From: Macrotis lagotis
Lineage: Eukaryota; Chordata; Mammalia; Peramelemorphia; Peramelidae
Assembly (NCBI RefSeq): GCF_037893015.1
Contig: NC_133660.1
Coordinates: 167,278,363-167,342,362 of the forward strand
Length of the DNA: 64,000 bases
Direction of reading: 5' to 3'
Every line of letters begins with the position of its first letter. Position 1 is the first letter of the stretch. The notes below the pieces were generated by a model, which had not been told where the DNA came from, made no database searches, and saw nothing but the letters and a program-made list of their open reading frames with translations. The translations under genes were made by a program, and so were the position numbers. Of the stretch, positions 5,859-39,129 are shown in pieces.

Positions 5859-6189
5859 CTATTCTGTACTACTACTTGGTATCTTCATAGCCATCCCTGA
5901 GGCATTGGTTATATCTAAAGTAGCTTTGAATACAGGAGAGTCTCTTTGTTTGGTACAAAAAGATGCTGTTGTCATTGAGAAGTCACAAGAAAAGTCCAAG
6001 TTCCTCTCTCTTCCTAGCCTCTCAGTGTCTGTAGGACCAGAATGAACAGCTGCCATCTGCCTTATTCTTCTGGCCTCATTCCACTTTTTGAGAGCTTCAT
6101 TCCTTTCCTCCAAAGTAAGTTTATCAAGATGCTTAGATCTTAATATCAAAGAAGGAAATACTGATCCCTGCAGAACTCTGTATATAAAC
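5859..6189 (-). CDS. ATP10D: ATP10D last coding exon, C-terminal tail
   Basis: This exon begins after the acceptor CCCTAG at 6191-6190. It completes the codon split by the previous exon (PR|FIYRVLQGS) and reads to a TAG stop at 5861-5859, giving 110 residues. The first residues finish the last membrane segment (LLPRFIYRVLQGS). The rest is the cytosolic tail with a charged stretch near EERNEALKKWNEARRIRQM. The part close to the membrane matches human ATP10D well, while the last 70 or so residues are poorly conserved, as is usual for class 5 flippase tails. The phase (2 nt carried over plus 331 nt) closes exactly. Assignment as the terminal exon is firm. Confidence 0.94.
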
Positions 6190-6740: not shown

Positions 6741-6928
6741 CTGGGGAGAAGAGCAATACAAGTTGTGAGGACACAGACTAAATAAAACATTGGATCCATC
6801 ATGTGCTTTTCCATGATCCAGTAGACATTGGATGGTGGGTTGCAAGTCACACACATTGCTCCAAACACCAAGGCAAAGAAAAAGTAAGTTAAGATGCTAC
6901 CACCAATGACCAGCATGTGAATCCAAGT
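6741..6928 (-). CDS. ATP10D: ATP10D exon, last transmembrane segments
   Basis: The acceptor is TTTGCAG at 6931-6929 and the donor is CCCAG|GTATGG at 6741/6740. The 188 nt encode TWIHMLVIGGSILTYFFFA and on to a conserved CNPPSNVYWIM and FYLVCVLTTCIALLPR. These are two hydrophobic helices (about residues 5-28 and 46-60 of the exon), corresponding to TM9 and TM10 of P4-ATPases. The short luminal loop carries the cysteine pair seen in ATP10D (MCVTC). The exon ends in phase 2, which the next exon at 6189 completes to R. Confidence 0.95.
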
Positions 6929-9464: not shown

Positions 9465-9569
9465 CAAAGTCTTACTTTCAATTACAAGGTGGAGAAGAAT
9501 GATGAATAGCGCTGCTGTGTTCAAAGGGTTCCCAAACATAAAGATGTCAATGTCTGAGCCCTGGTAGGC
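9465..9569 (-). CDS. ATP10D: ATP10D exon, TM8 region
   Basis: This exon is 105 nt, or 35 codons, in phase 0 at both ends. The acceptor is TTTTGTAG at 9571-9570 and the donor is TTG|GTGAGT at 9465/9464. It encodes AYQGSDIDIFMFGNPLNTAA followed by LFIILLHLVIESKTL. This is the luminal loop with the GS-D-DIF-FGNPLNTA signature of class 5 flippases, followed by a transmembrane helix. In human ATP10D the first residue is T rather than A; the rest is nearly colinear. The next exon begins with TWIHMLV, so the join reads ESKTL|TWIH as expected. Confidence 0.95.
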
Positions 9570-9674: not shown

Positions 9675-9755
9675 AAAGTAAGGCACAAAGAAGCAAACTA
9701 GGCTTTGGTAAAAGGCATCAAGCAAGGTGATCCAGAATGTGAATGGTAAGTATGC
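9675..9755 (-). CDS. ATP10D: ATP10D exon, TM7 region
   Basis: This small exon is 81 nt, or 27 codons, phase 0 to phase 0. The acceptor is TTTCCAG at 9758-9756 and the donor is TTT|GTAAGT at 9675/9674. It encodes AYLPFTFWITLLDAFYQSLV then CFFVPYF. It forms an amphipathic lead-in followed by one membrane helix, and it matches human ATP10D at almost every residue. Only about 100 bases of intron separate it from the following exon at 9569. Confidence 0.95.
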
Positions 9756-14420: not shown

Positions 14421-14621
14421 CTCCGATTTCTGGCCACTCTTATAAAGTTCAGGTAATTGCATGAGGGTCTCTGCTGAAACATCTTTTTCCAGGATTCCAT
14501 AAATGACTGGAGGAACAGATGTGAAGAGGAGGTTGAAGAAGATTAAAACCCAATAGTCTGACATGGATGTTCCAGAAAATCCACAAAAGAATTGGTACCA
14601 AAAAAGAAGATTTACATAAGC
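14421..14621 (-). CDS. ATP10D: ATP10D exon, TM5-TM6 region
   Basis: This exon is 201 nt, or 67 codons, phase 0 at both ends. The acceptor is TTTCTAG at 14624-14622 and the donor is GAG|GTAGGA at 14421/14420. It encodes [20 protein letters not shown], then [20 protein letters not shown] and [20 protein letters not shown], ending KSGQKSE. FWYQFF and the PPVxxGxxEKDVS motif are hallmarks of P4-ATPases; the latter follows the TM6 helix on the cytosolic side. Residue identity to human ATP10D is very high. It joins in phase to the exon at 16927-16802 upstream and 9755-9675 downstream. Confidence 0.96.
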
Positions 14622-16801: not shown

Positions 16802-16927
16802 CACATTCTTATAAAAGAAATACAGAATCATGTTTGATAGTCTGGTATAACACCAATGTCCATGGACAAGTAAAAGCTTGGTGAGGTGTCTGAACTGGGA
16901 AACTGCAAAATCACTGGCCATCACTGC
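16802..16927 (-). CDS. ATP10D: ATP10D exon, end of P domain into TM5
   Basis: This exon is 126 nt, or 42 codons, phase 0. The acceptor is TCTGCAG at 16930-16928 and the donor is GTG|GTATGT at 16802/16801. It encodes [20 protein letters not shown] then [22 protein letters not shown]. The MASDFA-x-QFRHL, HG-W-Y-R, and LYFFYKN motifs are strongly conserved in P4-ATPases and connect the P domain to TM5. It should follow directly on the GQEGMQ exon, which in this assembly is found on the opposite strand at 27023-27099. The split therefore marks the right-hand boundary of the rearranged block from the protein's point of view. Confidence 0.96.
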
Positions 16928-21985: not shown

Positions 21986-22054
21986 CTGCCAAAGTGACAT
22001 GACAAGCACATGAACTGGATTTGAGTGAGGGGGTGCTGTGCTAAGTCACCTGTC
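21986..22054 (-). repeat. 69-base exact inverted copy of 31332-31400 (truncated SINE at a contig join)
   Basis: This stretch is part of the long composite SINE (GTGAGGGGGTGCTGTGCTAA). Its reverse complement is identical, base for base, to 31332-31400, the last bases before the N gap. After 22054 the SINE stops abruptly: where the family continues with TCACTTTTTCCTCTGG the sequence becomes AGGTACCATGTTCTTG. To the left of 21986 it runs into non-repeat sequence. This is what an unmerged overlap between two contigs would look like, with the block to the right joined by its wrong end. Confidence 0.93.
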
Positions 22055-22559
22055 AGGTACCATGTTCTTGAATCTAGCTGTGTCTGTTTATTAGTTAAAA
22101 AAGTAATGTCTTGACTTATTCAAACAAAATAATGCCTTGAAAGTTCTCCGTATAATAAAGGGCTTTCAGGAATACATTAAAATCAGAGAATATTCTAACA
22201 GAATAAAACTGCAGAGATGATGTTATTTAGTGACATTCATTCAGTATACAACAAGTATGTATTGGGCACCTCCTTTGAGATAAGCACTGGAAATGTGGAC
22301 AAAAGGAAGGCCAGCTGAGGAGCCAGATTGGAAGGGAAGGATCAAACAAGGAGAGAGTTGCTCACCTAAGTTGTGCTTTCATCAGTGACATGGAAGACAG
22401 TGTCTGACCAGAGTCCAAGCAAAAGAAGTTTTCCCTATGACTGTTGGGTGTTGTTTCCAAATGTTCCCACTGACTAATGACATTTAATTAATGATATCAA
22501 GCCTTAACACACTACAAAGTTGTCTCATTGAAAACCACAGGAATGTCAAAGAAATTGAC

Positions 22560-22680
22560 TTGATTAGTAGATTGGGAGCTCCTTGAGGGCAGGCAGGATT
22601 TTTGCCTCTTTTTTTGTATCTCCAGTGCCTGACTCCTTGTAGGAACTCGATCAATGTTTATTGAGAACCTAACTATACAC
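22560..22680 (+). repeat. L2-type 3' end
   Basis: GGGAGCTCCTTGAGGGCAGG, GTATCTCCAGTGCCTGACTC, then CAATGTTTATTGAGAACC is the typical 3' terminus of L2 LINEs. Confidence 0.7.
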
Positions 22681-22884
22681 AAGCTTAAAAAATGTAAATC
22701 ATCAAACCCATGACATAGAACTGTGCTGTTGAATTAGACCATCACCATCTAGATATCTCAGATAGAACTTGGCAGATGACAGTGGGACTGATCTTGAAAC
22801 TGTTTGGGAGCAAGAAATGCAGCTATATCTCATTTGTTAAATTGATTGTTTTCAATTGTGTGCTGCCACAGAAATCTCATCTAT

Positions 22885-23090
22885 TTTATGCTATGGGATC
22901 CTAGACCTAGAAATGGAAAGGACTTCCTAAGTTATCTAAAACAGCTCCTTACAGATGAGGAAGTTGAGTGAAGTAATAAAGCACCTTCACTATGGTCACT
23001 CAGATACTAAATATTAGATTTTGAATTTCAACCCAGGCCATCTGATGCAGAGTCAAAACTCTTTCTACTTTACCATTCTAACACTGTTTT
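22885..23090 (-). repeat. MAR1/MIR-type SINE
   Basis: Reverse copy: CTAGACCTAGAAATGGAAAG, TTACAGATGAGGAAGTTGAG, then a diverged body ending TTTCTACTTTACCATTCTAA. Confidence 0.6.
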
Positions 23091-23464
23091 TTCCCATTAA
23101 ATATTTCCTCTGTGTATGCAAGTACAACATCCTAATGATTAAAATTACAGTAATACATCAGTGTGGCAGGCATCAATAGATTCTGTCACTACCAATGATT
23201 TGTCTGCAGGAAGCAACACTTTCTGACAGGCATTAATAGATGAAGAGATGATAACCGATCAGGGGATCATGGGGTTAGAGCTAGAAGAGACTCTAGGATG
23301 AGGAAAGAATTAGAGAAAGTCCTCCAGCATGTTAGTTACATCTTTATGAAGCATTTTCAGAAGACACACCAAAAATGGCACAGGATTAAAAAAGGATGAT
23401 GGAGTCAAATATGTCTCAGGGAAGGAGGGTCCCACCATATAACCACAACTCTGGTATCAGGGCT

Positions 23465-23930
23465 ATCATCAGAGAGAGCTAGAGCCAGAAGGGACCTTTA
23501 CAGATTCAAAAATCCAAAGCTTACAGAGTGGAACCAACCTACCCAAGATCATAGTTAGTCAAAGGCAGAACTGGAATTTGAACTCCAGTTCTCTAACCCC
23601 AAATCTGGTGATCTTTGTACCCTACTACACCCCTTCCCTTCCAACAAAGCAGATTGTAAGCTCCTTGCAGAATTTGGACAGTGCCTAGCATGGCACCCTG
23701 AATATCATACCCACTTTATGGTTTGACTGATTTGAAAATGTCTTATTGAAGTCTCATCATAATGTGGATTCAAATGCCTTCTCCAAGCCTTGCTTGCTAT
23801 ATTATGCCAGGCAACTCACTTAACCCCTCTGAGGCTTGGTTTCTTTATCTGTAAAATCAGTGATAATAACATCCCACCCAATTGGGAGGATCAAATGAAT
23901 TAATATCTATAAAGCAAATTTAATCACCAA
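23465..23930. repeat. MIR-type SINE (-), L2 scrap (+), MIR-type SINE (+)
   Basis: About 23465-23640 is a reverse MAR1/MIR copy (GAGCCAGAAGGGACCTTTAC). 23645-23705 keeps an L2 3' scrap (GATTGTAAGCTCCTTGCAGA). 23745-23930 is a forward MIR (GGCAACTCACTTAACCCCTC, ATCTGTAAAATCAGTGATAA). All are old and their ends are approximate. Confidence 0.55.
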
Positions 23931-24059
23931 ATAAAAGAATTTTGAACAAGCTACCAAGTCAGTGTTTGCTTTCTTTTCACTTATGATGATGTTCTAATTA
24001 AAATAATAGCATCCAAGTCATTACTACTACCAAAGAATGCCTTGAGAATTACATCTTTT

Positions 24060-24260
24060 TTCTTGGACTGTTGAAAGGTAGTTTCAGCTGCCTCCTCATT
24101 TTGTTCTCAGGCGACTCCTTCATTGAACTGTGAGCTCCTGGATTGTAGGGACTGAGCTGTTTTGGGGGCTGGGGGGATGCCTTTCTTTTGTATCTATCCC
24201 TAGCACTTAGTCAGTGTTTGGTACATTGAAGGTGCCTAATAAATGATAGATGACTGATTG
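24060..24260 (+). repeat. L2-type 3' end
   Basis: GAACTGTGAGCTCCTGGATT, CTATCCCTAGCACTTAGTCA, GGTGCCTAATAAATGATAGA. Forward L2 3' end, followed by a short MIR-like scrap near 24305-24400 (GGGTTCAAATCCTGTCTGTG). Confidence 0.65.
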
Positions 24261-25374
24261 ACAATCTCAGTCAATCTATCATTCATTAAGAACCTCCTAT
24301 GTATAATAAATAGAGCTGACTTTTGATGAAAGAGGGCCTGGGTTCAAATCCTGTCTGTGACACATTGTCTATTTTGATTCTGAGAAGGTCCTTTCCCTTC
24401 TCAGTGTACCAGGTAAGTCTTGAAAACAAAGCTGCAGGATAGTTACTGATCTACACTGATTGTAGGACTTTCTTTTCTGGGAATTATCAAACCCATTGAA
24501 TTTAGAACTCCAAGTCTTCTTTCTGTCCAATGAAATCCCAGGTCTGGACTCCCCCAGTATCTCATACAATGTCAGCCATTTAAACATTTTTTTTACCAGG
24601 TAGATTGTTAGGTGCTTAAAGACTGAAAATTTTCCATTCTTTTTAAATCTTTTTCTCCCCTTTTTCACTCTGTAGATTTATATTTTAAAAATGACCAAAG
24701 TGTTAGAAGTCTAATACACATTCATAAATTTATCCAAACATGACAATAGAAGCAGAAAATGATACCTTTGCTCATCCCATTAATATGACTGAGCACTTAT
24801 TTCTGCTCATTCTTGACAGATCTTATCCATGATCTATATCATGAACAAGGGATTTTTACATGTCTTTTATGAAAAGTCTTTCTGAAATATTTAAAATGAA
24901 AGTTGGGTATATAAGAAGATAGTCTTCAGTTACTCTTCCCTGTTTTCTTAAACAGAATATATGGAGCATGGAGAGTCACCATTTTAATCATTAATTATTT
25001 TACTGAATTTTATACTGTGGCCTCAGGATCTCTTGAATATGACCTCCAGAGTAAATTGAGGACTGGGGAATCCTCCATGTTTTATGATCACTTGGGCAAT
25101 TTATGATTTTTGTTTCTACATTGAATGTCAAGCTGTCAGTTGTCACTTTCTATTGCTGTCAGTGTGTCTGCTCCCTAGCAACCTACCCTCCCCCTTCTAA
25201 ATTACTGCTTCTAATCTCAGAGAGACTTTAGAAGCTACCTAACCAAGTTCCTTAGAATTTCAGTATCATTTATTCAATCAATGGAAGTCTTTTTTAAGTA
25301 TTTCCTCTATCCCAGGCACTGTGCTAGCCACTAGTGATGAAAAGATGATAAATGAAACAATCTTCATTCTCAAG

Positions 25375-25890
25375 GAGCTTTTTTTTCTTATTTATTTTCC
25401 AATTACATGCAAAGAGTTTTCAACATTCATCCTTTTGCAAGCTTTTGAGTTCCACATTTTTCTACCTCCCTCCCTTCCCACCTCTCTTCCCATGGCAGCA
25501 AATAATTTAAAATGGGTTGTACATATAAAATTAAGTTTAACATATTTCTATATTAGTCAAGCTGTGAAAGAACTAGAACTGAGAGGGAAATAAAACATGA
25601 GAAAGAAAGAAAAAACATAAAAAGTTTTAAAAGGGAACAAATGAACAAAAGAAGTTTTAAAAAGTGAAAGTCTGCTTTACTCTGCATTCAGACTCCATGA
25701 TGGATTTTATTCTGGATGTGGATGGCATTTTCTTAACCTGTCTTTCAGGATTGTCCTTGATCACTGAACTACTGAGAAGAGCTGAATCCATCATAGTTGA
25801 TAATCTCACAGTGTTCTGTTAGTTTATACAATGTTCTCCTGGTTCAGCATCAGTTCATGCAAGTTTTTCCATGTTTTTCTCCATGAAGTC
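25375..25890 (-). repeat. L1 3' UTR fragment
   Basis: Reverse L1 3' end: the pyrimidine tract CTACCTCCCTCCCTTCCCAC, ATGATGGATTTTATTCTGGA, ACTGAGAAGAGCTGAATCCA, TCATAGTTGATAATCTCACA. Ends at about 25885 before the conserved ORF2 tail. Confidence 0.7.
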
Positions 25891-26155
25891 AGAGGAGCTG
25901 GCATTTTAACAATTTGTCTAAAATAGTCTTAAGAGTTTGAGAGTATTTTCTGAGGGTAATGTTCTAAAGCTTTCATGCATAGTTACTGGTATTTGTCTTG
26001 GCTAGCCAGAGTTCTTTTTTATTATTGTCGTTCATGGCTATATTCTGAATCAAAGGAGAGGTAATGAGTGTAAAGCACTATGCAAATTTTAACAATCCTA
26101 TATAAATAGGAGCTCTTCCAGAAGATTTAATTAGATAATAGAAGTACCTAAGTAT

Positions 26156-26156
<1 letters not shown>

Positions 26157-26188
<32 letters not shown>

Positions 26189-26204
26189 ATACATATATAT
26201 ATAT
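26157..26204. repeat. (TA)n microsatellite
   Basis: A run of alternating T and A with GTATGTATATAC interruptions. No gene; the open frame on the minus strand across it is accidental. Confidence 0.85.
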
Positions 26205-26406
26205 AAAATCTTGTATCTCATTAGTTTTCTTTTTAGAGTTATTGCTTTTAGGATATTTTCACTAATTTGACTAATTCTTTCCCCAACTTGTAATGGCACA
26301 TACAAACAGACTCCAAGACATACATGCATGGCTCTCTTCAAAATTCTTATTGATTACTGAAATTTATTAGATTATTTCCCACTCTAGCTTAATTTGATGG
26401 ATACAA

Positions 26407-26407
<1 letters not shown>

Positions 26408-26484
<77 letters not shown>
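26408..26484. repeat. (CT)n microsatellite forming the polypyrimidine tract of an ATP10D exon
   Basis: About 38 CT units, interrupted by a single A near 26470, end only 13 bases before the acceptor AG of the exon at 26498. In the coding direction the repeat is pyrimidine-rich, so it extends the 3' splice-site polypyrimidine tract to roughly 90 bases. Confidence 0.95.
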
Positions 26485-26486
<2 letters not shown>

Positions 26487-26497
26487 GCCTCTTTAAG

Positions 26498-26783
26498 GAA
26501 GCCTATGAGATGTTGATGAATAAGGTATTAGAAGAACTTAAGAAAGATATTCAAAGTCCTCCAAATGTCCAGTCTTCCGGCACTCACATTCCTCAATTTC
26601 GAGTTGGACTCATTATCACTGGGAAAACATTAGAGTTTGCACTGCAGGATAGTCTGCAGAGTCAGTTTCTAGAACTCACTGGATTGTGCCAAGCTGTTGT
26701 CTGCTGCCGAGCAACACCCCTGCAGAAAAGTGAAGTGGTAAAATTAGTACGAAATCAACTCAAAGTGATGACCTTGGCTGTTG
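26498..26783 (+). CDS. ATP10D: ATP10D exon, P-domain loop and CCRATPLQK motif (on reversed block)
   Basis: The acceptor is CTTTAAG at 26495-26497 and the donor is GTTG|GTGAGT at 26783/26784. It encodes EAYEMLMNKVLEELKKDIQS, a variable linker, then VGLIITGKTLEFALQDSLQS, LTGLCQAVVCCRATPLQKSE and VVKLVRNQLKVMTLAV, ending one base into a G codon. LIITG-L-FAL and CCR-TPLQK are the diagnostic P4-ATPase P-domain motifs; they follow the nucleotide-binding domain. In human ATP10D the start aligns with the KD-CGMLM stretch, so everything between exon 3 and this point is missing. It lies on the plus strand, opposite to every exon outside the block. The sequence is intact, arguing for recent or artefactual reversal. 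Confidence 0.95.
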
Positions 26784-27022
26784 GTGAGTATAGGCATCAT
26801 TATGCATTTTGTCCCCCTTAATTTTTGTGACAAGATCTTAATTTCTCCATTTGGGTGATTTTTCTTCCATAGGATTTGAGAAAAGTGGGATAAGCAGGGA
26901 AGGGATTTATTTATCATAATCAGTAAAGATTTCCTAATTCATAACTTTCCACATCTGAAGTTATATTATTATCCCTTCTTTTTAATGCATCCTCTCTCCC
27001 ATATCCAATTGACCCTGGGAAG

Positions 27023-27099
27023 GTGATGGAGCCAATGATGTTAGTATGATACAAGTTGCTGACATTGGAGTAGGAATTTCAGGCCAAGAAGGCATGCAG
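27023..27099 (+). CDS. ATP10D: ATP10D exon, GDGANDV hinge motif (on reversed block)
   Basis: This exon is 77 nt. The acceptor is GGGAAG at 27021-27022 and the donor is CAG|GTTAGT at 27099/27100. With the carried-over G it encodes [20 protein letters not shown] then GQEGMQ. GDGANDV is the invariant P-type ATPase hinge, which coordinates Mg2+ and closes the P domain. Phase (1 in, 0 out) matches the exon before it (26783) and the exon that should follow, AVMASDF at 16927 on the other strand. Twenty bases after the donor lies a (TG)n repeat. Confidence 0.96.
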
Positions 27100-27111
27100 G
27101 TTAGTGAATAA

Positions 27112-27114
<3 letters not shown>

Positions 27115-27153
<39 letters not shown>

Positions 27154-27163
27154 TGTGTGTGTG
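27115..27163. repeat. (TG)n microsatellite just after a 5' splice site
   Basis: About 24 TG units with one TT interruption, starting about 16 bases downstream of the exon donor at 27099. In the transcript this is a UG-repeat, a known binding sequence of CELF proteins and TDP-43. An effect on splicing is inference only. Confidence 0.9.
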
Positions 27164-27174
27164 AAAGTCCCTAT

Positions 27175-27520
27175 GACCTCTTGAAACTACTACTTCCCAA
27201 ATCCAAAGTCTTCTCTGTGTAATCCATGAATTTTGGTATGTTGTATCATTGTTGTCATTCTCTTTAATGAAATTATTGATCAGTTCTGTGGTTTGAGCTT
27301 GACCCACTCTTTCTTTAGGATTAAATTTTTTAGTTTCCAATAAATTTTCTGTTATCTTTTCATGACCTTTTATAGAATATATTTTTCATTGCATCATGAT
27401 CTGAAAAAGATACATTTAATATTTTTTCCTTGTGGTGTGTTTATGCCCTAATATATGATCAATTTTTGTGTAGATGAGGTCTTCTCTGTGGCAAAATCTC
27501 AGCAGAAGAAAGAACCCTAA
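27175..27520 (-). repeat. L1 ORF2 fragment
   Basis: Reverse L1 ORF2 matter: GTTCTGTGGTTTGAGCTTGA, TGCATCATGATCTGAAAAAG, ATGCCCTAATATATGATCAA, AGATGAGGTCTTCTCTGTGG. Same region as the start of the fragment at 29845, implying two copies of the same L1 segment within 3 kb. Confidence 0.6.
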
Positions 27521-27756
27521 ATTACCAGAAGGGATACTAAGAGTGTAATTCAAAACTATATTGCTGATTGCTACAATCAAATAATTTCATTCTGCCTGAA
27601 TATCTTTCTCTTTTTATTTTTTAAGATTTTTTTATAATGACCTTGAAAAACTCAACAAACATAAACATTTCCATATTCAAAGGTCAGGTTTTTAAAAAAG
27701 ATTATGTAACTATGGATTTTTATATACATTATTTTTATAGCTCTCTATGGAACTTT

Positions 27757-27906
27757 TTTTTTAGATTTTTGCAAGGCAAATGGGGTTAAGTGGCTTGCCC
27801 AAGGCCACACATGTAGGTAATTATTAAGTGTCTGAGACCGGATTTAAACCCAGGTACTCCTGACTCCAAGGCCGGTGTTTTATCCATTATGCCACCTAGC
27901 CGCCCC
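27757..27906 (-). repeat. WSINE-type SINE
   Basis: Full-length reverse copy from its T-tail through GCAAGGCAAATGGGGTTAAG to CCACCTAGCCGCCCC. A nearly perfect target duplication, TATGGAACTTTT on the left and TATTGAACTTTT on the right, flanks it. Confidence 0.92.
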
Positions 27907-27929
27907 TTTATTGAACTTTTTATACCATA

Positions 27930-28350
27930 TTTTATTTTTTCCAATTACATTTTAAAAATTTTTAAACTTTTTTTTAAAGTTTTGAGTCCAAATTCAATCT
28001 CTCTCTCTCTCTCTCTCTGCTCCTTAAGATAGTAAGCAATCCAATATAGTTTATACATGTGCAGTCATGTTAAACATTTCCATATTAATCATTTTGTGCA
28101 AGAAGACTCAAATAAAAAAGTGAAAGAAAGAGGAAAAATATAATGCTTAGTCTGTATACAGAGAATTTCAATTCTTTCTCTGGAGGAAAATGGTATGCTT
28201 CATCGATGACTCCTTTGAGATTGTCCTGGATCATTGTATTGCTGAGAATAGCTAAGTCATTCGCAATTCTTCATCAAACAATATTGCTGTTGCTGTGTAC
28301 AACATTATTCTGATTCTGCTCATATCAGTTCATATAAGTCTTTCCAAGAG
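27930..28350 (-). repeat. L1 3' UTR fragment
   Basis: Reverse L1 3' matter with a (CT)n run at 28000-28018, TTCTTTCTCTGGAGGAAAAT, ATTGCTGAGAATAGCTAAGT and CATATAAGTCTTTCCAAGAG. The 27757 SINE is inserted just beside it. Confidence 0.65.
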
Positions 28351-28439
28351 GTAATATATTTCTCTTTTCAACTTGGAAGAAATATTTTGAAAGTGAATGC
28401 TCTGTAAGTATGTCATTAAGAATCATGAAGTTTGCGGGG

Positions 28440-28800
28440 TGGGGGCAGCATCTAGCTGGCACAGTGTATAGAGTACCAGTCCTGGAGTCAGGGTCTCAGA
28501 CACTTTATACTCTACTTAGTTGTATGACCTTAACCCCAATGCCTTATAAAACAAACCAACCATAAAAAAAAGAATCATGAAGTTCCTTCTGTATGCAACC
28601 ACTATGATGAGGGAAACTCCAATGAGTAAAACAGATTTACTTCTAATATAATTAATGTTGAGCTGTCTAGATCACTGAAGGTTGAATGACTTACCTGGGA
28701 TTACAAAGTCATCATGTATCAGAGAAGGGATTTAAACCCAGGTATTCCTGACTCCGAGGGAAACTATCTATCAATAATGCCACCTTGTTCCATTAGAGTT
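28440..28800. repeat. SINE (+) followed by MIR-like SINE (-)
   Basis: 28440-28570 is a shortened forward SINE (CTAGCTGGCACAGTGTATAG, then GTATGACCTTAACCCCAATG, missing the box-B region). 28660-28795 is a reverse tRNA-SINE (GGATTTAAACCCAGGTATTC, TAATGCCACCTTGTTCC). Confidence 0.65.
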
Positions 28801-29319
28801 TATGATGACTAACTTCATGATAGTTTTTTGATTCAAAGGGTACAAAAATCTGTGCTACATCAGAGAAAAAAGTAACAACTGTAAAGGATTCTTAGTATGT
28901 CAACCATGATAATTCTCCATCAAAAATGTTGTTTTGAGATGGAGCCAATGTGTTGATTTGTTTTGTTGAATCATACCTATTTTTTTTTAAATAAAGGAGG
29001 TCTTCTCATTAGGGATCCAACCTTCTAAACTATACTAATCCTTATGTTTATTTGTTGCTTTTAGCTCATTTCTTCTGTTTCATTCAAAACTCCCAATAGC
29101 ACAGTGAAGAAGATAGCAATGGGGTGTATCCTCATTTTGCTGATGGCAAAAAAAAGATGTAATTGTAAGTGGTAAAGGACAAAGTAAAAAATATTACTTT
29201 GTGCCATCTCTGCACTTAATTTAATTAAATTGTGTGTTTTTAAAATAATTCTCTTGATTCTCATTTTTCTTTACATATCTATCACTGCCTACAAATCACA
29301 ACCATTATCCCTAATTAGA

Positions 29320-29550
29320 CACATTCATTTTTAAAAAATTTTTAATTCAGCAAAACAAGTTAATACATTGGCCATATCTGAGAAATCATATCTCATTCTG
29401 TATCTCTAGCCCATCACCTCTGTGTTAAGTGGTGAGTTTTATTTTGTCAGTAGTCCTTGGCCATCATAATCATTCTGTTCTTTGAGTAAAGTCTAGAGGT
29501 CTTTCAAGTGTTTTTCTTTTCATTATTATTTTACTTATCATATAAATTGT
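29320..29550 (-). repeat. possible L1-type 3' fragment
   Basis: GCAAAACAAGTTAATACATT, TGAGAAATCATATCTCATTC and TCTGTATCTCTAGCCCATCA resemble the 3' UTR of a second L1 subfamily read in reverse. No conserved coding part is present, so the call is weak. Confidence 0.35.
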
Positions 29551-29844
29551 TTTGACTTGGCAAAGAAGACAAAAACAGAAAACAATATTGGCCCTAATGT
29601 TAGACAACACAGAGAAAAGCAAAACTGCCTAGGGCACTCCAGTACCTAGTTGACTTTGAATTTCTAATACAGTCATTTAGTCAGCTCTGGGCCCATCTAG
29701 TTGTATTATCATCTAGTTCACATCTCTCCATCCTTTCCAGAGGAATAATGTAAGATACTTCATCAAATGTTTTCTACAATCCAGGCAACTCTATAATACT
29801 CCCCACTCAACTAGATCAATAATGCTTCCCAAAATGGTTATCTG

Positions 29845-30460
29845 GAATGTTGTTTTCTAATGCCCTAGTACATGGTCAATTTTTGTATAAGTGCCATGTA
29901 CTGCAGAGAAAAAGGTATATTCCTTTCTATCCCCATTCAGTTTCCTCCATAAGTCTATCATATCTAGTTTTTCTGACAATCTATTTACCTACTTAACTTC
30001 TTTCCTGTTTATTTTATGATTCCATTTATCTAGATCTGAGAGGAGGAGGTTGAGGTCTCCCACTAGTAGAGTTTCTATTTATGTCTTCCTGTAGTTCTTT
30101 CAGCTTCTCCTCTAAGAATTTGGTTGCTATCCCATTGGGTGCATATATATTCAGTATTGAAATCACTTTATTGTCTATGGTACCTTTTAGGAGGATACAG
30201 TTTCCTTCCTTGTCTCTTTTAATGCTATCTATTTTTGCAGCTGCTTTGTCTGAGATAAGGATTGCTACCCCTGCTTTTTTCACTTCAGCTGAAGCAAAAT
30301 ATATTTTGTTCCAACCTTTTATTCTATATGTATCTCTCTGCTTCAAATGAGCTTCTTGTAAGCAGCATATTGTAGGATTCTGGTTTTTAATTCACTCTGC
30401 TATTTGCTTACGTTTTAAGGGAGAGTTCATCCCTGAAATGTTGTTTTCTGGATGAAGACA
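29845..30460 (-). repeat. L1 ORF2 endonuclease-domain fragment
   Basis: The minus-strand frame at 30346-30026 encodes an L1 apurinic-like endonuclease piece: GWNKIYFASAEVKKAGVAIL, ISDKA, then NIYAPNGIATKFLEEKLKEL. The motif AGVAILIS and the NIYAPN block are typical of the ORF2 N-terminus. Sequence down to 29845 continues the same reading direction (TAATGCCCTAGTACATGGTC) into the region before the RT domain. It is a fragment with no start and a stop, so not an active element. Confidence 0.85.
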
Positions 30461-30954
30461 TGTTAATACTTTATAATCACTGAAAATTTTAAATGACTTG
30501 CCCATTCTCAATGTTTTAAATATTCACTAGCCAATTCTTTAATAATGTTTCAGATTAATCTCATTATCCTATGGTTTGCAGATTATGTTCTATCTTTTTT
30601 TATAAAAAATTGAATGACATTTGCCCTTTTCTAATGCTGACGTACCTTTCCATTCTCCATTCTTTCAATACATGAGGTTATAGTTCATCTTGGCTGGGTG
30701 ATTTGAATTCATCAAGAGCAACTAGGTGAGGTGCTCTCTTATTCTTTCCCTGCATATCTTGGGAATCAACTCCCTATTAGTCATTTTTTCCCATTATTTA
30801 TGTTACAAATTATCCTTTGCAAAAAAAAAACCCAAACAGAAAAAGCAATATAAAAACCAAACAGTTCTTTCTCCCATCACTTGTCATTGTCTTTACTCCT
30901 CCAAGAAACAGTCCAGTCTCATCTTTAATCTTCCTCTGTTCCACAAGTTGGGTT

Positions 30955-31110
30955 TTTTTTAGGGTTTTTTTTTGCAAGGCAAATGGGGTTAAGTGACTTG
31001 CCCAAGGCCACATAGCTAGGTAATTATTAAGTGTCTGAGACCGGATTTGAACTCAGGTACTCCCTGACTCCAGGGCCGGTGCTTTATACACTGCACCACC
31101 TAGCAGCCCT
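30955..31110 (-). repeat. WSINE-type SINE
   Basis: Full-length reverse copy (TTTGCAAGGCAAATGGGGTT to CACCTAGCAGCCC). Flanked by TGTTCCACAAGTTG at the left and TGTTCCAAAAGTTG at the right, a one-mismatch duplication. Confidence 0.92.
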
Positions 31111-31133
31111 GTTCCAAAAGTTGTTTATAAATG

Positions 31134-31400
31134 AAGGGGCAGCTAGGAAGTGCAGTGGAGCACTGGCCTTAAGAGTCAGGAGGGCAGGAGTTCAAATGTG
31201 ACTTCAGACACATAACACTTACTGGTTTGGGCAAATCATTTAACCTTGATTGCCTCGTATCCAGGACCATCTCCAGTCATCCTGATTCATTTCTGGCCAC
31301 TGGACCCAGATGGCTCCAGAGGAAAAAGTGAGACAGGTGACTTAGCACAGCACCCCCTCACTCAAATCCAGTTCATGTGCTTGTCATGTCACTTTGGCAG
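31134..31400 (+). repeat. long composite SINE running into the sequence gap
   Basis: Forward copy: GGGGCAGCTAGGAAGTGCAG, GTTCAAATGTGACTTCAGAC, TGGCCACTGGACCCAGATGG and ACAGCACCCCCTCACTCAAA, up to the first N. Its last 69 bases also occur inverted at 21986-22054, where they continue into unique sequence. The copy is therefore probably complete once the reversed block is turned round. Confidence 0.9.
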
Positions 31401-31432
31401 NNNNNNNNNNNNNNNNNNNNNNNNNNNNNNNN
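31401..31432. other. assembly gap of 32 N
   Basis: The only ambiguous bases in the window. Both edges are inside SINE sequence (composite SINE on the left, reverse WSINE on the right). In the corrected layout the missing middle exons of ATP10D would fall here, so 32 bases cannot be the true size. Confidence 0.97.
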
Positions 31433-31502
31433 TGTCTGAGGTCAGATTTGACATCAGGAAGCAGGCACAACTCTCTATTCATTATGCCATGTAACTGCCC
31501 CA
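31433..31502 (-). repeat. partial SINE at the right edge of the gap
   Basis: Reverse copy retaining only the 5' half: TGTCTGAGGTCAGATTTGAC, then TTCATTATGCCATGTAACTG. The remainder lies in the gap. Confidence 0.8.
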
Positions 31503-31729
31503 TAGATTCAGAAACACATAACATCACAAATAGGTTTGAGTCATGAGTTTCAGGATTTAGTGGTAGATTTGCTGTTTCTCTAGAAATTCTAAATTGAACC
31601 AGCAATTACAGGACTATGCACATAATAGGGATTTATGTGTTTTTCAAATTAATGAGTGTTCTATTCTTGTAAAAAAAAACCTTCATTAGATGCTAACATG
31701 TTAATTAGCTTTCATCCTAGATTTCTCCT

Positions 31730-32800
31730 TACCTAAATTCCTTTAAAAAGTCATCTCTAATTAACATCTCCATTTCCTTTCTTCTCATTTTGTTCTAAAT
31801 TGGTAGCATCTTCAGCTTCATCATTCAATTAAAACTGCTCTCCCCAAAGTTAACTATGATTTCTTTATCCCTATATCTAATTATCTCTTTTCAGCCCTCA
31901 TCCTTTTTGACCTCTTTGTAGTATTTAATCTCATTAATGATCTTCTCTTTCTGGATACTCTTTCCTTATTGAATTTTTGCAACACCAGTTTCTCCTGGTT
32001 TTCTTCCTACCTATTTGAATAACCCTTCTGAACTCTGGCTGCATCTTCATCTATCAAATACACACTAACTGTGGGAGTCTCCTAAGGCTATGCTCTTGGT
32101 CTCCCCATTTCTCTTTAAATTTTGTCACTTGATGATCTCATTAGCTCCCATGGGATTTCAGTATCTTTTCAATGCAGATAATTTCTAGGTTTATTTATCC
32201 TGCCCTCTTTTCTCTCCTGAGAGAGAACATGAATTGCCTGTTAGATCTTTTGAGCATTTTGTAAATATCTAAACTCAACATATCTAAGAGAAAATCTGTT
32301 ACAGCTCTCCCTCAATCCTCCTCTCTTCTGAGTTTCCCTACCTCCATCTTCCTAGCCACCCCAAGCTTATAATATTAGTTTTCTCAACTATTTTCATTCA
32401 CCTATCTAATCAGTTACCAAATCTTGTAATTTCTTTTCTTTTACATCTCTAATATATGTCCCATCTTACATTCTATTTCTCACCATGCTCTCTACAATCC
32501 AGTCATACTGGCCTATTCTGCCTGGTATGTTTTTCCTCCCATTTCCATGTCTTAGAATTCTTGGCTTCTTTAAAAGACTCAGTTCAAGTTCAAATTATTG
32601 TAGAAGACCTTTCCTGTTCTCTCCCTCCCCCAAACTGCTTCTATCATTTCTTTCTAAGGATACCTTTTAACTATTCTGCATTCACCTTACCTATCTTTTT
32701 AGTGTGGTTTGTTGATTTTCTTTCTATTCCTAGTGCTTAGCATGGTGTCCGGCAGAGAGCCAGCATTCAATAAATGCTTACTAATTTATTGGCTAAAATC
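31730..32800 (+). repeat. L2-type LINE 3' region
   Basis: Long forward L2-like stretch: CTCAACATATCTAAGAGAAA, CAGTTACCAAATCTTGTAAT, TTAGAATTCTTGGCTTCTTT, ending GCATGGTGTCCGGCAGAGAG and CAATAAATGCTTACTAATT. Frames at 32456-32740 and 32485-32670 are remnants of ORF2 or chance. Confidence 0.7.
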
Positions 32801-33182
32801 CAGATTCCAGTTAATGAATTTAGTTAACCAGTTAGCCATAATAAACTGGAGATAACTAGAAAAGCAAACAAAACTTTTTGTTATTACCACTGCATATTAA
32901 CAACATCTGAGACTATTAGCTTTTAGTATTGAAAACTGAGGGTGATACCAAAGAGTTTTTGGATAGGCATAGCAAATGATTCTGAAAATTGTAATTTTTA
33001 AATTCAATTCTCACTTCGCCATCACTTTCTTAAGTCTAAACAAGTCTAAAACAATAAAACAAACCCTGATTACTTTGTGGATTTCCAAGGTGGATTTCCA
33101 ATGCTCACACTGAAAAGTGAACAACTGGCTTTTTCCAACCTTGTACTTTGCAGGTTATAACATACCCTTGGTATATACATAC

Positions 33183-33247
<65 letters not shown>
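33183..33247. repeat. (TA)n microsatellite
   Basis: About 32 perfect TA units abutting the T-tail of the WSINE at 33248. Probably grew from, or at, the SINE insertion point. Open frames of repeated I and Y residues across it are artefacts. Confidence 0.95.
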
Positions 33248-33249
<2 letters not shown>

Positions 33250-33394
33250 AGGTTTTTTCCAAGGCAAATGGGGTTAAATGGCTTGCCCAAGGCCACACAG
33301 CTAGGTCACTATTAAGTGTCTGAGACCAGATTTGAACCCAGGTACTCCTGACTCCAGGGCTGGTGCTTTATCCACTGCACCACCTAGCCACCCC
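33248..33394 (-). repeat. WSINE-type SINE
   Basis: Reverse copy with intact body: CAAGGCAAATGGGGTTAAAT to CACCTAGCCACCCC. The open frames on both strands at 33301-33622 start within it and are not genes. Confidence 0.92.
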
Positions 33395-34340
33395 TCCTCA
33401 ATAGTCCTTGACAGCTCAAATATTACTATATCACTTTCTGAGCTGAAGTTCCCTGTTAAACAAACAACTTTGAAAATAAATGTTGTCATTGATGTGCATA
33501 ATCTACTAAAAAAATCACAATTTTGGAGATTAGTTTGGTGGTTTATCTTAAAAGTAGCTATAATTTGGGGTTTTGAACAGGATGTAGAATGTACATATTT
33601 CATAGGTAAATACACATTATAGTCTATTATTCTGAAGATATAATCACTATATTAATTTTTAAAACATTTTCCAGTAATTGGACCTATTAATTTTCATAGT
33701 ACCTCATTTGAACACACTCAAAAATATCTAATAAAACTTCTTTATTGTGCACATATGACTGACATAATATAAAGCAAAATTCAAAGAAAATACTCTTGGC
33801 CTTTAGAGACTTAGGATAATAGAAAACAATCCTCTCTGACAAATAATCACATTATACATAATTGCTATACCATGCATAATACCATCAAAAATTATTACTC
33901 TCTTCCTTCTAATATCTCTTTGTTTATCTAACAACATATCTCATATGTATAAACATGTGTCTATATGTCTATGTACAAAAATAGATACACATTTATATAA
34001 TATCTTTAAGAGGAATAGTGGGAAAATAATATTATCATTGAAATCAATTTTAGAACAATATAAAAATCAAAAGAGCAATTAAGAGAACAAAGACTGGCAT
34101 AATAAGAGAATTGCTCAAGCATTTCCTTAAGAGGAACAAAGATGAATGTTTTGCTGCTCTTATTAAATTTCTGCTGTGTTGTATAATGATTTCATAATTT
34201 TATCTCTCTGACATAGGAGAAATTATAGCCTTATTTTTTCCTTTCTTTTTAAAAATAGAAAAAATGTGAAAAAAACAACTGGCATAACAATTAAGGCTTT
34301 AGTTTTCTATTCTTATATGGAAATAAGGGATTTATATCAT
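33395..34340. other. intron, no gene or named repeat
   Basis: AT-rich sequence in the intron 3' of the TM1-TM2 exon (gene orientation). No exon-like conserved frame was found on the minus strand, where missing ATP10D exons would be expected. Confidence 0.5.
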
Positions 34341-34344
34341 CTTC

Positions 34345-36175
34345 AATCCAATTCCTTTCTCTCACTCCATCCTCAGCCCCCTACAGTCTGGCTTCTGAGA
34401 TCACTCAACTGAAATTGTTCTCTTCTAAATTAGCAACAATTTCTTACTAGTCAAATGTGATATCTTTTCTCAGTCTTCATCCTTCTTGACCTACCATCTT
34501 TCTTTTTGAATACTCTCTCCCTCTTTGAATTTTCATAATACTGCTGTCTCCCAAGTCTTCTCCTACCTATTTAACAGCTTTTTCAATCTCCTCTGATAGC
34601 TCATCATACATATTGTGCCTTTAATTTTCTTGTCTTTTCCTTCTATGTTTTCTGTGATAGAAGCTTAGGTATGTTAGGACTTGGTGGCCAGAATTCAGGG
34701 TAAGGATCAGAGTAAAATTTAATTATCATCTCTATTCCTCTGATTCACAGATTTAAATACTCAGCTCTTTACTCTTTCTTGAATACTAGTCTTGCATTAT
34801 CAACTATCTGGACCTTTCAAACTGAATGTCTGTTAAGTGTCTTTTTCTCGTGCATGTCCAAAATGGACTCTATTCTCTTTCTCCACTAACACTCCTCTCT
34901 GCTGAACTGTACTATTTCTTACTAGGGTACCACCATTCTTTTAATCTCCCAGATTCATAATCACAATATCTTGATACTTCTACCACTACTATATCTCTTG
35001 CATTCATCTATTGTTTCTAATCTAAAAGAATATCTTAGACCACATCTTCATCATACTTCTACTTGAGATATTTTAATATCCCACTCATTGTTTCTTATGC
35101 CTTAAGTGTTCCCCTGCTTGTATCCATCACGCACATAACTTTTCCTTAAGTACAGAGAAATTTTCCTGTTGGCAATGTATTCCCCCTTTTCTGTTGGCAA
35201 TGTATTCTCTCTTTATTCCCATCTCATCGAATCCCTCTTTGCTTCAAGATGTATCTTAAACACCACCTTCTACATCAGGAATAGGGAATGCCCATTCAGC
35301 AAGTTTTATAAATCATTTAGGCTGGTGCTGCCAAAGTAACTGCAGGTGGGACTCAAAATTCAATAAATCTAGGAGCTTCTTAAGGGTGAAATAATTAAAT
35401 GTTTGACCAAATATAGAAGGTTAATTTTTAAATTTTGGCCCTTGGCAGAAAAAAAGGTTCCCTGTTCCTGTTCTTTCTTGTTTCCTTCCCAATCAATAAT
35501 GCCCTCCGTTCCATAAGTATACTTAACTACCTTGGATTAATTTTGTTTACTCTATTTCTATTTATTTTGCATAATAAATATACAATATGTATATAAATAT
35601 ATGCATATGTAAGTACACATTTTCTCTACCTCCATCCTACCTCCCTCAATAGTAGAAATTTTTCTTTTTTTTTCTTTTTATCTTCGTATTTTCAGAATGT
35701 CTGGCAAAAAAGAAACACTAAATCAATAATTAATTCAATAGCTGATTCATACTTCTTTAAATTTTATTTCACAGACCAGTAAAGGCTTATAATCAGTCCA
35801 GTTCTACTTCTTGTATCCATCCCTACTGATACCACTTTAGACCCTCCAACTTCATTTCCTTTCTACCAACCTACCAAATCTGTCTCCCTAAAACAATGTT
35901 TTCATCATTCTATTCTCTTCTTAAAAACCTTCAAGACCAGATTCCTCACTCTAAAACTCTAGACCTTCTAGAATTTAACTTTGAGCTGTGGTTGCAGTTT
36001 TACTTCTGGTTTACCCACTATTCCCAGCACATGTTATCTGTTATCCAACTTCCATGAAATCTAAAGAGTTTCTCTTTCATCAATTTTATATGAAAGCAAA
36101 TACTAATTGACAGTTTTCTTATTTTTAAACAATTGCACAGTATATTGTAATACTATTTTGGGAGCTTTCTCTACC
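34345..36175 (+). repeat. L2-type LINE fragments
   Basis: Forward L2-like sequence in at least two pieces: about 34345-35560 (GATCACTCAACTGAAATTGT, TCTTTCTCCACTAACACTCC, TGTATTCTCTCTTTATTCCC) and 35795-36170 (CCAACCTACCAAATCTGTCT, TAAAAACCTTCAAGACCAGA). The piece at 35270-35470 (CATCAGGAATAGGGAATGCC) does not fit and may be another insertion. Confidence 0.55.
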
Positions 36176-36698
36176 TACATATCTTCCACTCCTCTTTCTG
36201 GGACATAATTAGGAAAAAAAATCCAAATTCTGATATTGAATCGAAGGCTATAACTTAGAATTCTTTTTTTTGAAAGGCAGAGTGTTATTCAAAATATATG
36301 AAAGGTAACAATGAGGAACTTGAGGAGGAGTACTTTACAGTCTTGACTTTGCAGAAAAAGATGCAAAGGCTTATAAAATATAATAAGAAAAAAAGCAAAC
36401 TTTCTCATATTAGTCAAATGTAACTTCCCTACTTTTCCTTGACATTCTCCAAGTAAATAACCTGGACTTATGAGTTGTTGGCTTCTTGGGAACTAGGATC
36501 ATTATTAAGCATCTTTGCATTTTCCCCAGCACCCAACACATTGGTTTAACACACAGGAGGAACTTCAAGGTTTGCTAAAAAAGTTACAACACCCAAGGTA
36601 GTGCCTTCAAAGGAATTTTAGTATTTTATGCATGAAAAGACTTCTTCCAATAAAGGTGTTTCAAAAGTATTAAATAAACAAACACATACTTTACTCAC

Positions 36699-36893
36699 CT
36701 ACTATATACCTTTGTTATTAAGTTGTTGATCTGTTTATCTATTTTATATTTTCGGTAATCTTCCAAACCATCTTTAATTGCTATGATTGTGAGAACGACC
36801 ACAAGAGGCAACATAGTAATTTCTTTTTGGAAAGCTTCTACCAGAGGGACCCAGTTGAGGACGACTAAAAAGAGGAAATACAAGTTGGCAGCT
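36699..36893 (-). CDS. ATP10D: ATP10D exon 3, TM1 and TM2
   Basis: The acceptor is TTTTTCCAG at 36896-36894. The donor is AGTAG|GTGAGT at 36699/36698, preferred over the weaker AAAG|GTATAT because human ATP10D continues VYSR in this exon. The 195 nt encode (R)AANLYFLFLVVLNWVPLVEA, FQKEITMLPLVVVLTIIAIK, DGLEDYRKYKIDKQINN and LITKVYS. Two helices are clear: TM1 (LYFLFLVVLNWVPL) and TM2 (MLPLVVVLTIIAI), followed by the DG-EDYRRxK-D-x-IN motif leading into the actuator domain. The Q after AF and the residues in TM1-TM2 belong to the lipid-selectivity gate in P4-ATPases (established for the family). It joins in phase 2 to the N-terminal exon at 49720. No following exon is present in the window. 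Confidence 0.96.
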
Positions 36894-37094
36894 CTGGAAA
36901 AAAACACACACACACATATATATTCTAAAGAGATATTGTTATCAAGATGTATTAACTGCAATTTGAAAGGTTTTATTTTTAATCACAAATCTATAGAGCA
37001 TTTTTTCTAAGAGTCTTTTATACTTGGTTTGGTATTTAGTACTACAAATATAATATTCAGGAAAAAATGATACTGTTAAAAATCCAACTAAAAT

Positions 37095-37246
37095 GGGGGC
37101 AGCTAGGTCGTGTAGTGGATAAAGCACCAGTCCTGGAGTCAGGAGTACCTGGGTTCAAATCTGGTCTCAGACACTTAATAATTGCCTAGCTGTGTGGCCT
37201 TGGGCAAGCCATTTAACCCTGTTTGCCTTGCAAAAAAAAAATCTAA
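37095..37246 (+). repeat. young WSINE with 15-base target-site duplication
   Basis: Forward copy (GGGGGCAGCTAGGTCGTGTA to the A-rich tail) flanked by AAAATCCAACTAAAA on both sides (from 37079 and from 37249). It lies about 200 bases upstream of exon 3 in gene orientation. Confidence 0.93.
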
Positions 37247-37391
37247 AAAAAAATCCAACTAAAAGTTTTATCATTCACATAGAAATCTAGAAATCTACTT
37301 TCCTCTCCTATTAGTTTTAAATTTAGTATTAAAATAGTTTTAATATTTGATCATTTAATAGGACCTACAAAAATAAGTAGCAAAATAAACA

Positions 37392-37562
37392 TTTTTTTTT
37401 ATTTTTTCAAGGCAATGGGGTTAAGTGGCTTGCCCAAGGCCACATGGCTAGGTAATTATTAAGTGGCTAGGTAATTATTAAGTGTCTGTGAGGTCGGATT
37501 TGAGCCCAGGTCCTCCTGACTCCAAGGCCAGTTCTCTATCCACTATGCCACCTAGCCGCCCC
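37392..37562 (-). repeat. WSINE with an internal direct duplication
   Basis: Reverse copy in which GGCTAGGTAATTATTAAGTG occurs twice in a row (about 37446-37484), once in full and once continuing into TCTGTGAGGTC. The element is otherwise normal, ending CCACCTAGCCGCCCC and flanked by AAAATAAACATT at both sides. Confidence 0.9.
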
Positions 37563-37845
37563 AAAAATAAACATTAAGAGAATGCAATTGAAGCACCAAA
37601 ACTTTTGTTTCATTTTATGGCCAGTGATTTTATCTCTGTGGAAAATCCTCAATAAACAAACTCCTTTTACCAATGCAAATTGGCACCTACTCTCCAATTT
37701 ACAATCTGAGAATTGCTATCTTAGAGAGTTGACCTAAATTTACCCATAATTAAAAGCTACAAACCTTAGCCTATGTAAACACATTTTTTATAAATTTCGT
37801 AAAGCAAAGTCCATGAGGTATTCCTCTTCTTTCTACATTAAATTC

Positions 37846-38005
37846 TAGGGACAGCTAAGTGGCTCAGTGGATAGAGCATCAGCCCTGGAGTCAGGAGGAC
37901 CTGAGTTCAAATTTGACCTCAGACACTTAATAATTACCTAGCCGTGTGACCTTGGGAAAGTCACTTAACCCCATTGCCTTGCCCCCCCAAAAAAACAAAA
38001 CAAAA
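37846..38005 (+). repeat. SINE1/WSINE-type SINE
   Basis: Forward copy: GGGACAGCTAAGTGGCTCAG, GGAGGACCTGAGTTCAAATT, then GTGACCTTGGGAAAGTCACT. The GAGGACCTGAG and GTGACC variants are those of an older subfamily than the GTACCTGGG copies. Confidence 0.88.
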
Positions 38006-39129
38006 TTATATTCTAGGCCTTGATTACTTAGATACATATGTTCTCTATGATAATTCTTGTGGGCACAATCAATCTACTTAAATAGAAAAGAAACAAAGTA
38101 GACAGTCTCTAAACTCAGTCAAATGACTTAATAAAGACAACATTGACATAAGGATCATGGGACCTTAAGAGTGATAAAGTGGGTGACATTTGTTAAAAAG
38201 CTAAGCAGGAATACAGAAGAAAAAAATATACACAAGTTTTGAAAGATGTCTGAGAGGTGGGAAGATGGTCATTGATTTTTGTTCTGCAAACCCTATCCAA
38301 CAACAATAATAAAGCATGTTATGAACCCCAAATCAATTTAATATACCACTCATAATATTCTTCTATATTTATTCATAAATGTTTACCATAATAAAACCTT
38401 TTGCCCCAAAAGCTAATTAAAAATTACTAGAAAGATTTCACTTGGACTTAACTTGTTCTGTGAATCTCCCTCCCTCTCTCTGACCATCTCTCTTCTTCCT
38501 CCAATTTCTTCATCTCTTACTATTGTCTGTGAAACAGGCTCAAGTCTCTATAATTATAATTATAAAAAACAAAAGGCTATTCTCCATAGCTAAGTTTTAA
38601 AATCAAAACTGTTTTAAAATTTAAAGCTAATTATTAAATAATTACAAATATTTTATGTGAGACATTCTATAATAAAAGAATTCAGCAACACCTTTTATGC
38701 TAATTATTTATATATATAGTAACATAACTAGACAATTATTTATTGCTTAAGGAAACATTAAAGACTTTTTTTTTTAAATCATGAAACCACAAGGAGTCTG
38801 TGAACCACAGTAAATGACAGTCATTGGGTTACAATAGATGTTGATGAATAAATGATAGATCATAGAAGTATCCTTCTTCTCTATTCCTGTCATGGAGAAC
38901 TACTATTTTTTTTTTCTAATCTTGTCCTACACTCTCTTGTCAGACCTTCACATGAATCATCTCCTCCCCTTGAATACATTTCCTAATTCTGTGCTCTGCC
39001 ATTCCCACCCCCACCAAATTACTACCACACCTATTTGAAAGTGGTTTCTTCTTAATGAAAAATTTTCCCAAAACATTTTGTTTCCTATCTCCATTTCCCT
39101 ATTCCATTCTACCTTGTATCACATTTGTG

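Follow-up and report, generated by a model that had tools for sequence, protein, structure and literature searches.

In an earlier zebra finch assembly, KCTD15 suffered the same kind of error that we propose here for ATP10D in the greater bilby, Macrotis lagotis, which would be another instance. As the KCTD15 passages of Kim et al. (2022; PMC9516821) describe it, GC-rich 5′ exons were affected and gaps lay round the contig, whereas at ATP10D it is later exons that are affected and there is one gap only. An exact overlap of 69 bases that would mark the true join belongs, in comparison with that account, to the ATP10D case. The KCTD15 case was settled by a better assembly; that of ATP10D is argued from the sequence.

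The gap filler PBJelly offers a second likeness. According to the part of English et al. (2012; PMC3504050) that deals with gap filling, it incorporates reads that extend the flanks of a gap and reduces gaps that it cannot close, and at ATP10D, too, sequence may have been added beside a gap that was shortened and not closed. These authors suspect that some of their overfilled gaps stem from problems already in the assembly, inversions included. That an extension could be inserted in reverse, one of the routes suggested below, is our own proposal and goes beyond what that account describes. Inversions through staggered breaks are a possible third likeness, in that each end of the inverted segment carries an inverted copy of one short stretch; in one Drosophila case these duplications measure 380 and 128 bases (PMC5080602). 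As presented there, the signature comes without an assembly gap, whereas at ATP10D one copy ends at a run of Ns, the place at which the gene lacks a part.

For greater bilby assembly v1.9, the assembly description in the genome paper (PMC11239497) lists about 10x HiFi coverage, the Improved Phased Assembler and Purge_dups, ARCS and LINKS scaffolding in which gap sizes were estimated, PBJelly for gap filling, then Pilon, Diploidocus and lastly HiRise and manual curation. BUSCO duplication was 4.9%, which its authors attribute possibly to low HiFi depth. ATP10D does not occur in the main text of that paper, and the literature that we searched yielded no paper combining ATP10D with marsupials. 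We infer that the assembly analysed here is the published v1.9 in a slightly different release.

The window, by which we mean the whole stretch of DNA analysed, is C3:167278363-167342362 of this assembly (64,000 bases), which holds 3,655,600,598 bases in 607 contigs. Rfam gave no match in the window at the gathering score, and no stop-to-stop frame of at least 150 residues occurs in it. We consider it very probable, from the evidence of the letters themselves, that bases 22055-31400 were inserted reverse-complemented and that a 69-base overlap was left unmerged, and we infer an error in place of the animal's own order. Biologically there is most likely nothing unusual here, the gene being a normal one that was put together wrongly. 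Left as it is in a reference genome that serves conservation, the locus would suggest that ATP10D is broken or lost, or that there is a structural variant.

Exon order and reading frame

Table 1 Features of the ATP10D locus in window coordinates
Feature	Position	Strand	Remarks
First coding exon, with start codon	49720..50009	-	
Second coding exon	36699..36893	-	
32-N gap	31401..31432	.	No other Ns occur in the window; some 785-788 ATP10D residues are lacking between the flanking exons
Right, inverted copy of the 69-base overlap	31332..31400	-	Adjoins the N run
Rest of the SINE whose 3′ part is the 69-mer	31127..31331 (left limit approximate)	+	Family copies align throughout
Block, apparently reversed, 9,346 bases	22055..31400	-	Holds the wrong-strand exons; turning it restores frame and gene order
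Exon B (GDGANDV...GQEGMQ)	27023..27099	+ (wrong strand)	92-100% identical to five marsupial ATP10D proteins
Exon A	26498..26783	+ (wrong strand)	79-88% identical to five marsupial ATP10D proteins
Left copy of the 69-base overlap	21986..22054	+	Exact match; SINE family homology ends here as written
Exon C (AVMASDF...)	16802..16927	-	
Exon D	14421..14621	-	
Exon E	9675..9755	-	
Exon F	9465..9569	-	
Exon G	6741..6928	-	
Last exon H, with stop	5859..6189	-	

The coding exons bear out the strands given in the original prediction: both exons inside the block lie on the plus strand and all eight others on the minus strand (Table 1). All ten are open, with GT at 9/9 donors and AG at 9/9 acceptors. As written, exons A and B could not be spliced in cis with the remaining exons. 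We constructed a turned version of the locus in which 22055-31331 is reversed and the two 69-base copies are merged. All ten exons then follow one another on the minus strand as they do in the protein, and the eight exons A-H form one uninterrupted frame of 464 residues that ends in a stop. The turn had been expected to restore both the strand and the order of GDGANDV before AVMASDF. The first expectation held; the second was mistaken, since even before the turn GDGANDV, at 27.0 kb, precedes AVMASDF, at 16.9 kb, when the minus strand is read. The order that the turn does restore is that between exons A and B.

Compared with proteins of solved structure, the 464-residue product gave 43 matches: 20 to P4-ATPase sequences, each aligned as a single stretch, and 23 weak ones to calcium pumps. 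Among the 120 listed of 7833 database matches, the best five are marsupial proteins named ATPase VD, with identities to the joined protein of 92% (Phascolarctos cinereus, the koala, for which the ATP10D entry is an isoform without the first part), 91% (Vombatus ursinus) and 88% each (Gracilinanus agilis, Notamacropus eugenii and Sminthopsis crassicaudata). In 5/5 marsupial ATP10D proteins the end of exon B is joined directly to the start of exon C. Pfam recognizes a complete C-terminal P4-ATPase domain at residues 123-368 of the joined product; this domain lies wholly in exons C-H, so the match is no test of the turn.

The existence of related loci on C1 of the same genome raises the question of whether exons A and B could come from a paralogue, or from a second copy of the gene in the other orientation. 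Against this stand the identities of both exons to marsupial ATP10D (Table 1) and the fact that they are in frame with exon C. For the interval of exon A, moreover, the only genome match at such a level is the window's own (33 scored of 195 candidates; exon B is too short to be listed in this search). We give a paralogous origin next to no credence.

In exon H, the minus-strand frame at 5859-5890 ends in ...PSSSTE-stop, and another frame of the same DNA reads ...QNSTQK-stop, which is the ending of the marsupial orthologues. The frame change alters the C-terminal tail and shortens it by several residues.

The inverted copy and its SINE

The reverse complement of 31332-31400 is identical to 21986-22054 at 69/69 bases, and the right copy touches the N run at 31401-31432, both of which had been noticed beforehand. 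The resemblance breaks off immediately on the side of the block, and at its opposite end the right copy passes directly into the 32 Ns. The block is thus bounded by an assembly gap on its right, directly after 31400, and is gap-free at its left boundary, where the written join 22054/22055 carries no Ns. An exact-repeat comparison within the window gave 114 pairs of at least 24 bases after a complexity filter, of which the 69-mer is the longest and the next longest measures 57. In the written orientation, there is no overlap of 3 to 68 bases between the sequence to the left and the block. Once the block is turned, the sequences on either side of the gap have no exact run in common longer than 9 bases, too little to be useful. 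The written join is straddled by a 5-base inverted repeat, ACCTG-T-CAGGT (22045-22060), which is probably due to chance.

The 69-mer consists of the 3′ part of an interspersed repeat, as its many copies show, and of about 9 locus-specific bases. We take the repeat to be a SINE of a marsupial kind. Forty of 903 genome candidates were scored, and among these all 69 bases are present at two places only, both of them here. The other 38 copies start at base 10 or later of the 69-mer and are 93-98% identical, the best of them reaching 98% over about 56 bases inside the SINE body, so exactness within the repeat is weak evidence if taken alone. Two further copies in the window that overlap the 69-mer well have at most 20 consecutive bases in common with it. 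The match of the two copies extends past the repeat family into locus-specific sequence, since they are the only scored copies that hold bases 1-9, and they therefore look like one locus represented twice. We accordingly do not attribute the match to independent SINE copies, as its first 9 bases occur in only 2/40 scored copies.

The 69-mer lies mostly inside a SINE that has many copies, a setting in which recombination between two inverted copies might have flipped the segment in the animal. Separate insertions should differ outside the family sequence, yet the roughly 9 locus-specific bases are common to both copies here and occur in none of the other 38 scored. Such recombination would also leave full elements on both sides, whereas here the written join interrupts the element of the left copy. 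These observations make a flip by SINE recombination extremely unlikely.

Comparison with the SINE family agrees with the original prediction that the left copy stops mid-element at 22054 and that the right copy carries the remainder. When the block is turned and the copies are merged, the SINE becomes continuous, and three copies in the window span the predicted join, one of which extends just 10 bases beyond it on the shorter side. Six of the 38 other genome copies were fetched, and all six span the join; against the written version, all six end within 5 bases of the break. A possible target-site duplication round the rejoined SINE (TTCATTT at both edges) was set aside, because 1.5% of 20,000 shuffled versions of the left flank also yield it and because the same letters occur in the tail of one other copy of the family.

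The missing middle of ATP10D

No complete ATP10D coding sequence was found at the locus: residues of about 163-950 (about 786 codons) are missing from the window. Four full-length marsupial proteins used as queries align to the window as far as residue 162 and resume at 948-951, and a permissive window search with residues 166-940 of the four proteins gave a sole match, at E 4.2. The residues are absent where the 32-N gap separates the second coding exon from the exons of the block. In the original prediction it is the turn that leaves the gap facing the missing exons; the gap stands between the second exon and the block exons either way. A search with wombat ATP10D brought up none of the missing exons in other parts of the assembly (33 scored of 195 candidates). 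In the same search, matches inside the missing interval were at most 71% identical and lay at two loci on C1, which we take to be putative ATP10A and ATP10B. The middle of ATP10D is either unassembled or deleted, the former being more likely given the low read depth.

A deletion would belong to a reading in which the written order is real, that is, a 9.3-kb inversion through staggered double-strand breaks that left a 69-base inverted duplication at both ends and, together with a large deletion of the middle of the gene, destroyed ATP10D in the bilby lineage. Were this true, the locus would be a natural knock-out of a lipid flippase gene. A 69-base inverted duplication similar to those of the Drosophila inversions is present, and may have been longer, one copy being cut by the gap. 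The failure to recognize the missing exons elsewhere among the scored candidates also favours a real inversion, as does GC skew, which does not flip in the block. The written join without Ns speaks against a reversal during assembly, and so does the right part of the block, which is C- and T-rich and resembles its written right neighbour. T-over-A skew does change sign in the block, so that strand skew decides for neither reading. This reading nevertheless leaves unexplained why the right copy ends exactly at the N run and why about 786 codons are lost at the same place, and the ten remaining exons, open and with GT-AG sites, bear no sign of long decay. We regard it as very unlikely.

GC skew is strongly negative across 29000-39000, down to -0.32 at 35-36 kb, and is positive at 41-47 kb.

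Possible routes to a reversed block

If the block was instead reversed during assembly, the true continuation of 22054 would be 22055-31400 in the opposite orientation, the far end of the block, reversed, being the same 69 bases. Reversed insertion without merging of the overlap would put the 32 Ns beyond the far end of the block, in the place that belongs to the middle exons of ATP10D. Two routes could have led there: a short contig may have been misoriented during scaffolding, or a flank extension of read length may have been set in reverse by the gap filler. Both would yield the same letters. At 9,346 bases, the block is of the order of one HiFi read in length. Strand, exon order, frame, SINE and 69-mer all support the unmerged overlap and orientation error that had been predicted, as do the marsupial orthologues, whose exons stand in the same order; the accompanying view that the block is a contig is too narrow, as PBJelly puts flank-extension reads into gaps and a reversed gap fill would fit equally well. 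Gap reduction by PBJelly could also leave an odd remainder such as 32 Ns. The locus suggests a cheap screen for errors of this kind, namely for exact inverted copies at the ends of a block of wrong-strand exons, one of them touching a run of Ns.

At the two ATP10-like loci on C1 (388.20-388.34 Mb and 484.76-484.90 Mb), matches occur twice each, at constant spacings of about 102.4 kb and 92.0 kb, respectively. In a 10-kb stretch compared at each locus, the copies are 99.5% and 99.9% identical. These paired copies look like unpurged haplotype duplication, and real tandem duplication is possible.
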